From Planctomycetota bacterium (GTDB lineage Bacteria > Planctomycetota > SZUA-567): a stretch of DNA of 35,345 nucleotides. The stretch spans positions 1 to 35,345 of the forward strand of contig JAISXA010000250.1 in the NCBI GenBank assembly GCA_031270685.1, given 5' to 3'. The stretch's first letter is position 1. Every line of letters starts with the position of its first letter. The position numbers and the translations under genes were made by a program. The notes beneath the pieces were generated by a model that made no database searches, was not told the DNA's origin, and was given only the letters and a program-made list of their open reading frames with translations. Of this stretch, positions 1,841 to 35,345 are shown piece by piece.

Positions 1841-2533
1841 TCATGCGCCGGCGGCGCGGGCGAGCATGGCGCGGGCGTTGGCGGCGATATCGCCGCCCCT
1901 GAACAGTCCCGAAGTGCCGCCGGTGAGGATGTCGGCCCCCGCCGCGACTATGGCCGGTATGGTGTCGAGGTTGACGTTCCCGTCGGCCTGCAGGCCGACG
2001 CCCGGCGCGTGCCGACGCAACAATCCCGCTATATGCCCGAGCGAATCGATCGACCCCGCGCCCAGTTTCTGGCCGGCATGACCCGGCTGCACCAGAAGTT
2101 TCAGCACCCATTCCACCGACCCGAGCACGGGGATATATGAATCGTCGAGGTTGGTTTCCGCCCTCAGGGCGAGAATCGGCGCCGCGCCGAGATCGCGCAC
2201 CCGGCCGCACAGACGAAGCGTTTCAGCGGCGTTCTGCGTCTCGGCGTGAAAGGCGACGTAATCCGCGCCGGCGTCGACGTATTGCCGCAGAAACAATTCC
2301 GGCCGCATCACCGCGAGATGCGCCTCGATGGGCAGTTCCGTGCCTTTCCGCAGCGCCGCGAGGGTGGGGCCGCCGAGAATGAAGCAGCTATTGAACTCCC
2401 CGTCCACGACATCAAAATGTAGAAACGAGACCGGACTGGCCTTGACCTTGTCAAGGTCGTCGGCAAGATGCATGAGATCCATGCAGCTCACCGATGCCGA
2501 CAAGGTGACGGGATTGCGGACCACCCTTCGCAT
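1841..2533 (-). CDS. Ribulose-phosphate 3-epimerase family protein
   Basis: A 230-aa TIM-barrel protein of the RPE family. The family landmarks appear in order: LSASVSCMDL (usual LAPSILSADF) near residue 12, LHFDVVDGEF (HVDVMDG), IEAHLAV (DVHLM), VQPGHAGQKL (V-PG-GGQ), LQADGNVN (vDGGI) and AGADILTGGTSGLF at the phosphate-binding end. The metal ligands His and Asp of HFD, His of EAHL and Asp of QADG are all present, so it is likely active. RPE interconverts ribulose-5-P and xylulose-5-P; relatives epimerise allulose-6-P or similar ketose phosphates. Several motifs deviate from canonical RPE, and it sits in front of a glycyl radical enzyme. It is therefore probably a pathway-specific epimerase and not the housekeeping one. 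The ATG at 2533 has GGGAG eight bases upstream. It heads the minus-strand operon that continues to the left edge. Confidence 0.8.
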   Translation of the reverse strand: MRRVVRNPVTLSASVSCMDLMHLADDLDKVKASPVSFLHFDVVDGEFNSCFILGGPTLAALRKGTELPIEAHLAVMRPELFLRQYVDAGADYVAFHAETQNAAETLRLCGRVRDLGAAPILALRAETNLDDSYIPVLGSVEWVLKLLVQPGHAGQKLGAGSIDSLGHIAGLLRRHAPGVGLQADGNVNLDTIPAIVAAGADILTGGTSGLFRGGDIAANARAMLARAAGA

Positions 2534-2570
2534 CGGTACGTCTCCCTAAGGTCATGAATGCAAATGCGCA

Positions 2571-2593
2571 AGGCCCGGCATGATGCCGGGCCT
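2571..2593 (-). terminator. Stem-loop downstream of hppA, probable terminator
   Basis: A perfect 10-bp inverted repeat, AGGCCCGGCA and TGCCGGGCCT, with a 3-nt loop, starts 30 nt past the hppA stop codon. On the minus strand it is followed by TTGCGCATTTGC, which is only weakly U-rich. It is a plausible but not ideal rho-independent terminator separating hppA from the epimerase operon. Confidence 0.55.
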
Positions 2594-2622
2594 CGCGCCT
2601 GGTCCGGATTCCTCGCGGCGCG

Positions 2623-5130
<2,508 letters not shown>

Positions 5131-13354: not shown

Positions 13355-13552
13355 GTCAACTTTTGGAGGAAATCGGGCCAACCGCCGCCCGATTTTCTCC
13401 AAAGATGTTACCGCTTACGGGCCAATGGGTTGGTTTTCCGTCAGGTCGGGCGATACCGCCGACTTTGCAATAATTCCCGACGGGAAATGGAACCACAGGA
13501 AACTTTGGAGAGAAGCAAACGGCGGTTTGTTTGATTTTCTCCAACCGTCCAC
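13355..13552. repeat. Composite two-hairpin interspersed element, copy A
   Basis: About 198 bp bounded by inverted ends: GTCAACTTTTGGAGG at the left, and on the opposite strand GTGGACGGTTGGAGA at the right. Hairpin 13360-13404 has arms CTTTTGGAGGAAATCGGGC and GCCCGATTTTCTCCAAAG around CAACCGCC (GGCGGTTG on the minus strand). Hairpin 13504-13544 has arms TTGGAGAGAAGCAAAC and GTTTGATTTTCTCCAA around GGCGGTTT. The core between them (GCTTACGGGCCAATGGGTTG, then TTGCAATAATTCCCGACG) recurs in copy B at 34146. It would be transcribed as part of the sulfur-operon leader. Confidence 0.9.
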
Positions 13553-24891: not shown

Positions 24892-24968
24892 GGGATGGTC
24901 TCCAAACGGCCAAAGACTCAATTGGCAAAACTCGCAACCCTTGCGGACACGCGCGGTTTTGTTTTTGC

Positions 24969-24999
24969 AAAGCGGCGATCGGCGGTTAAATCGCTCTTT
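24969..24999. repeat. Stem-loop with conserved GGCGGTT loop upstream of argH
   Basis: AAAG-CG-GCGAT pairs with ATCGC-T-CTTT around the loop CGGCGGTTAA. The arms share no sequence with those of the other family members, but the loop is the same. TTTCGCGG follows, similar to the TTCGCG that flanks the hairpins near rbsB. Confidence 0.6.
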
Positions 25000-25071
25000 C
25001 GCGGAATTTCCGATCTTCACACATCCCCGCCCTCCGCGCAAGGACAATTCGCCGCCGGAAAAACGCGGCCA

Positions 25072-30031: not shown

Positions 30032-30089
30032 GATTGCCCGTTCAGCGCCGGGGGCGAAGCGCCGCTTCGACCTTTAGCGCCGAAGTTTC

Positions 30090-30206
30090 GCGAAACGGCG
30101 GTTAAACCGCCGCTTCGCCGCCTCGCGAAAAGCGAAAACGCCCGCGCCGCTAAGGATCGTGATTGCCGCGAATTGGGCGTTCGGCGGTTTGAACGCCCAC
30201 TTCGCG
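30090..30206. repeat. Two GGCGGTT-loop stem-loops between rbsB and lacI
   Basis: Hairpin 30167-30206 has CGCGAA plus TGGGCGTTC paired with GAACGCCCA plus TTCGCG, one mismatch in 16 positions, around loop GGCGGTTT. It ends 11 nt from the rbsB stop codon. Palindrome 30090-30118 has GCGAA, CGGCGGTT, a single A, AACCGCCG and TTCGC. Here the conserved loop sequence itself has become a stem arm. They may protect the rbsB mRNA end or be inserted repeats. The rest of the 185-nt gap shows no gene. Confidence 0.8.
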
Positions 30207-30216
30207 AATGTCCGGC

Positions 30217-33847: not shown

Positions 33848-34145
33848 GGGGTTTTTGGGATGGATTTTGGCGACGGGCATCCGGGCGCAAAGCGGGACCG
33901 GCCATTCCCTGACGGGATGGCCGGCGAAGTTGGGAAGGAGGAAAGCCGCGTTGCGCAACGCCAATATCAAACGCTGTTTTATCCCCTGGCGTAGTGTTGC
34001 CTGTGCGCGGATCGGGTGTTGACGCCAACCATGTCGTTTCCCCATATTACGCCGGCAAGGATAAAACAGCATGTTTATCGCATGAATTCATAGTATCCCG
34101 GGATTTCCCGCTTTGTCGGGAGAAAATAAAAAAAACTCTAAAACA
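33848..34145. other. Gene-free region upstream of the rbs promoter
   Basis: The GC content is visibly lower than in the genes. It contains a strong hairpin at 33898-33924 (CCGGCCATTCC, loop CTGAC, GGGATGGCCGG, with one T-G pair) and the long inverted repeat at 33973-34070. Next comes an A-rich run, AATAAAAAAAACT, before composite repeat copy B. ORFs reported here do not look coding. Confidence 0.6.
33973..34070. other. Long two-part inverted repeat enclosing about 54 nt
   Basis: GCTGTTTTATCC (33973-33984) and GGCGTA (33988-33993) are perfectly complementary to GGATAAAACAGC (34059-34070) and TACGCC (34048-34053). That makes a 12-bp and a 6-bp stem separated by small internal loops. The 98-nt unit could fold into a closed RNA or be a small inserted element. 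No family is recognised. Confidence 0.65.
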
Positions 34146-34357
34146 GTGGACTTTTGGAGAAAATCGGGCCAACCGCCGCCCGATTTCCTCCAAAGATGTC
34201 ACTCCAAAGATGTCACTGCTTACGGACCAATGGGTTGATTTTTCGCCCTGTCGGGCGATAGCGCCGACCTTGCAATAATTCCCGACGCAAAATGTAAACC
34301 CAAGAAACTTTGGAGAGAATCAAACGGCGGTTCGTTTGATTCTCTCCAAAAGTCAAC
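34146..34357. repeat. Composite two-hairpin interspersed element, copy B, next to the CRISPR array
   Basis: About 212 bp, clearly homologous along its length to copy A at 13355-13552. Hairpin 34151-34195 has CTTTTGGAGAAAATCGGGC paired with GCCCGATTTCCTCCAAAG around CAACCGCC. Hairpin 34309-34350 has a perfect 17-bp stem, TTTGGAGAGAATCAAAC, around GGCGGTTC. ACTCCAAAGATGTC is partly duplicated in tandem after the first hairpin, which explains the extra length. The outer ends are GTGGAC and, inverted, GTTGAC. The second hairpin ends 39 nt before the first CRISPR repeat and could terminate an array transcript made from the right. Confidence 0.9.
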
Positions 34358-34389
34358 CGGAAAGACATCCTCGAAAGCCCGGTCGCGGT

Positions 34390-35345
34390 ATTTCAATCGC
34401 CTTTCACCTGCAAGGGAGATTCTCGGGTTAACGGCAACATTACGCTTAATTTCCCTACCGTGGATCTCAATCGCCTTTCGGCTGTGGGGGAGATTCTCGG
34501 GGTGGAGAATTTCGCCGACGACCTGTTCCGGCAATACCGAGTCTCAATCGCCTTTCGGCTGTGGGGGAGATTCTCGGCGGCACCGGTTGTTCGAAACCAA
34601 CTTCCCGCTTGCGGGTCTCAATCGCCTTTCGGCTGTGGGGGAGATTCTCGGCTTGTCGGCACCGGTCTTGGATCGTTGCTCGGAGGACGTCTCAATCGCC
34701 TTTCGGCTGTGGGGGAGATTCTCGGATCCCGCGAAATATTTCTCTTCGGTGGACGACCTCCGCGTCTCAATCGCCTTTCGGCTGTGGGGGAGATTCTCGG
34801 GTCGTTTCGACGACGCCACCGACGCCTGGGAGCGCGTGTCTCAATCGCCTTTCGGCTGTGGGGGAGATTCTCGGAGCGATACTGGCTGGTATATCCGTTT
34901 TAACCGCTGCGAGTCTCAATCGCCTTTCGGCTGTGGGGGAGATTCTCGGCTCGAGGCGGCCGGACATCTCGCGCATCGCCTCGGGTCTCAATCGCCTTTC
35001 GGCTGTGGGGGAGATTCTCGGTTGGCACTATATCTTCTGCTGTTGGCAGGAGTGATTAGTCTCAATCGCCTTTCGGCTGTGGGGGAGATTCTCGGCGCCG
35101 CCGCGAACAAGAAAAGCCTTAACCTCGTGGAGTGGTCTCAATCGCCTTTCGGCTGTGGGGGAGATTCTCGGCCGCCAACAGCGTGCCAATGCCGACTGGG
35201 ACGAGTACGGTCTCAATCGCCTTTCGGCTGTGGGGGAGATTCTCGGTCTGTTTGCGTTACAGGGTGTGCAACTCCCCCCCGAGCGTCTCAATCGCCTTTC
35301 GGCTGTGGGGGAGATTCTCGGAAAACGATGGATGCAATCACCCGT
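34390..35345 (-). CRISPR. CRISPR array, 13 repeats and 12 complete spacers, continuing past the right edge
   Basis: Repeats of 37 nt begin GTCTCAATCG and end GAGATTCTCGG on the plus strand. They start at 34390, 34464, 34541, 34615, 34689, 34764, 34838, 34913, 34985, 35059, 35135, 35210 and 35285. Spacers are 35-40 nt and all different; a 13th is cut by the edge. The first repeat has about seven changes and the second one; the other eleven are identical. Degenerate repeats normally mark the end far from the leader. On the minus strand the repeat ends in GATTGAGAC, close to the ATTGAAAC tag of many type I and III crRNAs, and contains GCC-GAAA-GGC as a hairpin. Both facts suggest transcription right to left, with the leader outside the window. 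No cas gene is present here. Confidence 0.98.

Follow-up and report, generated by a model that had tools for sequence, protein, structure and literature searches.

A CRISPR Array at a Contig End in a Planctomycetota Bacterium: Type III Gene Linkage of Its Repeat Class and a Probable Antisense Bias of Its Spacers

Introduction

Spacers of type III CRISPR systems are known to prefer the strand which lets the crRNA pair with mRNA, with an average of 65% and a value of 88% in Moraxella III-B (Vink et al. 2021, PMC8482600). In the type III arrays of Thermus thermophilus, whose adaptation is free of reverse transcriptase (RT), the orientation bias has been ascribed to counter-selection of spacers that are unable to pair with mRNA (Artamonova et al. 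2020, as described in PMC9048733). The III-B system of Marinomonas mediterranea possesses an RT-Cas1 and is described as taking up spacers in either orientation (PMC5576922).

Here we analyzed a CRISPR array of a Planctomycetota bacterium, in which the same mRNA-pairing bias as that of Vink et al. (2021, PMC8482600) was observed. The two studies differ in that the bias here comes from codon usage and theirs from mapped protospacers, and on this different basis the value for our repeat class (0.96) is higher than their reported average. The case of T. thermophilus was built on infection experiments, whereas ours is built on genome sequence alone; M. mediterranea resembles the present case in having a type III-B effector, and RT-Cas1 occurs in some relatives with the same repeat class, but no RT was found beside cas1 in this host genome. 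The antisense bias is thus already known for type III systems, and the array fits the known pattern. With a probability of about 78%, we consider it to be part of a type III-B (Cmr) system whose leader lies off the contig to the right and whose crRNAs are mostly antisense to phage mRNA.

Architecture and Polarity of the Array

The window, i.e., the whole stretch of 35,345 nucleotides that was analyzed, corresponds to the complete contig C256 of a draft genome, which totals 3.18 Mb in 283 contigs with a completeness of 88.65%. Its last 957 bases form an array on the minus strand (34389–35345; the initial annotation had placed the start at 34390) which runs into the right-hand contig end. It comprises 13 repeats of 37 nt and 12 complete spacers; of a further spacer, 24 nt are present before the contig breaks off (35322–35345, minus strand), and the leader must lie beyond it. 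The spacer lengths of 35–40 nt that had been given earlier were seen in all 12 complete spacers. Having direct repeats of constant length and unique spacers of similar length, this is a real CRISPR array.

The repeat, read on the minus strand, is CCGAGAATCTCCCCCACAGCCGAAAGGCGATTGAGAC, and 11 of the 13 copies are identical. The mismatched copies are the two leftmost ones, both on the minus strand: the first (34389–34425) is the most degenerate with seven mismatches, and the second (34464–34500) has a single mismatch. The exact repeat is absent from the other contigs of this genome and from 148 relatives, and its 33-nt core gave no match in the public genome collection. A scan of 20 predicted proteins of the window revealed no cas gene, and no Rfam family was found in a search of the window.

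The degenerate repeats mark the left end as leader-distal and place the leader side beyond the right contig end. We defined a repeat class as arrays whose repeat ends in AGGCGATTGAGAC. A scan for such arrays gave 24 loci, mainly from Lentisphaerae, Kiritimatiellae, and Verrucomicrobia, most of which have the 3' half AGCCGAAAGGCGATTGAGAC in common. In seven of them (L154, L155, L156, L163, L165, L171, and L172), cas1-cas2 immediately precede the array and are encoded on the same strand. Transcription of the window array from right to left, which had previously been proposed on the basis of the left degenerate repeats and the minus-strand repeat end, is well supported: this gene order agrees with the degenerate left end of the window array, with the other arrays of the same genome, and with the nature of the left flank, the last two being described below. 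Two further arrays are present in the same genome. The repeat of the C212 array has the same GATTGAGAC end as that of the window array; there the leader precedes the first repeat, and the opposite end of the array has a degenerate repeat. The C47 array shares its repeat with the C212 array, has a very similar leader, and is placed after cas1 and cas2.

A leader on the left side, which according to the initial annotation would refute its reading, was rejected because the left flank (34144–34357, no strand assigned) is a dispersed repeat, of which the examined 21% of the genome contains approximately 37 near-full copies. This element of about 200 bp forms strong hairpins (DNA fold z = -7.7) and is also present at 13359–13552 and at the start of contig C47. 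A second family of dispersed short repeats is represented at 30082–30211 and 24901–25019 and has more than 20 near-full copies in the examined part of the genome.

Type III Genes Linked to the Repeat Class

Contig C208 of the same genome contains a Cmr (III-B) operon composed of Cas10, Cmr3, Cmr4, Cmr5, Cmr6, and Cmr1, followed by a CARF-RelE gene that is cut by the contig end. The Cas10 protein has both GGDD and HD motifs. Thus, Cas10 and Cmr genes coexist with the window array in one genome. One cas1-cas2 pair was found on C47; this cas1 has no RT alongside, and neither of the two RTs of the genome is beside a cas1. The cognate cas1 of the window array may be located in an assembly gap. An SNF2-type helicase gene adjoins the cas1-cas2 pair directly upstream (L014, G000:C47, 1496–4395).

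In at least 10 of the 17 public genomes with this repeat class, type III RAMP genes share a contig with the array, contigs being matched by their length, and are no more than 10 kb away from it; an eleventh such genome is probable. RAMP genes are present anywhere in the genome in 16 of the 17, and one genome lacks them. Most of these same-contig neighbors are Cmr operons, whose proteins resemble Cmr3–Cmr6 of our organism. In both L165 and L171, the Cmr genes are followed by one or two genes and then by cas1, cas2, and the array. Such adjacency of array and Cmr operon was seen only in the other genomes of the repeat class, and the window contig ends within the array. C208 and C256 may represent the two sides of one Cmr locus, in which case the gap between them would hold cas1-cas2 and the leader. 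The window array almost certainly belongs to an RNA-targeting type III system. A type III effector had been suggested before from the array itself, and both the Cmr operon in the genome and the linkage of the repeat class to RAMP genes support it.

Several observations were counted against the III-B reading: the contig contains neither a cas gene nor a leader, the significance of the antisense bias in the window spacers alone varies with the codon model, one spacer is sense to an exact chromosomal target, one genome of the repeat class lacks RAMP genes, and I-C and III-D-like systems are also present in the genome. The III-D-like operon is located on C33 (Cas10, fused RAMPs, Cas6, and Csx16), and its Cas6 is the only one observed next to type III genes. 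It is unlikely that the window array serves this system, or is shared by both type III systems, in which case RNA would still be targeted by antisense crRNAs. The Cas10 of L157, whose repeat is a variant of ours, does resemble that of C33, and a Victivallales genome of the same repeat class (G397) has a similar III-D operon; however, operon and array are on different contigs in G397, and the neighbors found on the same contig as the array are mostly III-B, as described above.

That the array feeds the DNA-targeting type I-C system, the antisense signal being incidental or a result of sharing with type III, is highly improbable. Genes for Cas3 and Cas5c of this type are indeed present in the genome (C275), but that contig is 3 kb long and has no array, and nothing ties the system to the window array. 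Moreover, the search of the 24 repeat-class loci found RAMP genes but gave no match to Cas3 or Cas5c.

Strand Bias of the Spacers

The initial annotation had quoted three spacer peptides, all of which are present on the plus strand, and had conceded that the argument from open frames is weak. We found that 35 of 39 frames are free of stops on the plus strand versus 32 of 39 on the other, which is uninformative alone. The strand of each spacer was assessed by a codon-usage likelihood ratio that compares the spacer with its complement and asks which is more like coding sequence; in calibration, host 37-mers were given the right strand approximately 80% of the time.

In the window, 9–10 of 13 spacers score antisense, and the maximum-likelihood antisense fraction is 0.97–1.0. 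Sign-flip P-values were 0.0047 when 33 curated host genes were used, 0.048 for 211 automatically called genes, and 0.067 under a generic codon model. The bias seen in the window spacers alone is suggestive. In the arrays of the relatives it is strong: the antisense fraction of 213 repeat-class spacers from other genomes, with arrays masked from codon training, was 0.96 (0.87–1.0; P < 1e-5). The same P-value was obtained with a composition control and with the generic codon model, and leaving out any one genome changed the bias little. On the other hand, the C212 array of the same genome gave a fraction of 0.33 (0.12–0.57) by the same method, indicating that the codon test does not favor antisense by itself. 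The newer part of that array (L053, G000:C212, spacers 1–25) looked sense-biased with the curated gene set (P = 0.007), the split having been chosen post hoc.

Most crRNAs of the window array appear to be complementary to phage mRNA. The evidence for this complementarity consists of the statistical bias and one antisense target family, and one sense exception stands against it. The earlier claim of antisense crRNAs holds statistically, although the bias is not absolute, as the spacer at 34950–34984 is sense to its exact target.

Such a bias could also be made at acquisition, by an RT-Cas1 that copies RNA, instead of by selection. RT sequences were detected in four repeat-class loci (L157, L167, L169, and L170), and in L167 and L169 they share one reading frame with cas1. 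However, when loci with RT were left out, the bias in the remaining 126 spacers was equally strong (antisense fraction 0.94, 0.81–1.0; P < 1e-5), and the RTs found in our genome are, as noted, not beside cas1. In addition, published accounts of RT-linked type III acquisition report no general strand bias (PMC9048733) or uptake in either orientation (PMC5576922). We regard this origin of the bias as very unlikely. A further idea is that the repeat class represents a type III lineage, mostly without RT, in which adaptation itself picks the orientation, so that new spacers would be nearly all antisense before any selection; this appears rather doubtful. In L170 (Lentisphaerae), a 993-aa frame that follows cas1-cas2 (1933–4911) contains an RT motif and, as judged by eye, a putative primase-like region further on.

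Targets of Individual Spacers

The spacer at 34578–34614 (minus strand) encodes RHRLFETNFPLA on the plus strand, and its crRNA is antisense to the matched gene, a viral DNA cytosine methyltransferase. Four IMG/VR contigs (L199, L204, L205, and L206) have methyltransferase-like genes that encode exactly the peptide RHRLFETNFPL, and related proteins of cultured phages carry the annotation DNA cytosine methyltransferase. The best match (L206) covers 30 of 37 nt and all differences within the 11 codons are synonymous, a type of match which is favored because the search pattern presupposed the reading frame; the strand of the matched genes was left free. Another spacer (35172–35209, minus strand) has a homolog in the C47 array, namely spacer 4, and each of the two is antisense to RANxDWDEY. 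Spacers 30 and 35 of the C212 array (L053) are also homologous to each other (GH[FL]GADRN on the complementary strand), and one gene was therefore seemingly sampled twice.

A different situation was observed for the spacer at 34950–34984 (minus strand), which is identical over 35 of 35 nt to the V/A-type ATPase subunit A gene of the host (L086) and whose crRNA is sense to the mRNA. It may be tolerated because its crRNA cannot pair with the V/A-ATPase mRNA, although this is one case. Self matches were checked by blast in 21% of the genome. A further search for matches in this genome or its relatives found none, which is weak evidence as it scored two regions per genome and missed the known self match. 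The PAM expected for type I-C is TTC. The self match is instead preceded by TGG on its 5' side, which disagrees with a I-C assignment, but a single self match says little, and no close phage protospacer with readable PAM flanks was found.

Searches for other targets were negative: no cultured phage was matched significantly by the array or by any spacer in blastn, and neither tblastn of the joined spacer peptides nor three long codon-degenerate patterns searched against IMG/VR gave any match. Pattern matches of spacers W_6, W_11, and W_2 stop short of the full spacer and were regarded as chance. That of W_12 (26 of 37 nt, in frame) is weak and was left uncounted. A match of W_11 to G012:C54 and several matches of C212 spacers in relatives were gapped or unconvincing and were rejected.

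Proposed Mechanism and Implications

Based on these analyses, a reasonable model is that transcription of the array is driven by a leader beyond the right-hand contig end, and since the leader would be on that side, the crRNAs would be minus-strand molecules with ATTGAGAC as 5' handle, presumably cut by a Cas6. The Cmr operon on C208 would be the partner of the array across the assembly gap. Most crRNAs would then pair with phage mRNA, which would be cut by the Cmr complex, and pairing would induce Cas10 to make cyclic oligoadenylate for a CARF effector, e.g., the product of the CARF-RelE gene after cmr1. The antisense bias most likely reflects selection, because only spacers that pair with transcripts would protect the cell and persist.

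The sense self spacer is consistent with tolerance of self spacers that are unable to pair with mRNA, again as one case. More generally, our results show that, even without protospacers, an orphan array on a broken metagenome contig can be assigned a polarity and a targeting mode, by combining its repeat class with the gene neighborhoods of relatives and with codon-based statistics of the strand. The strong bias in RT-free loci makes the choice between selection and orientation-aware acquisition a testable question.
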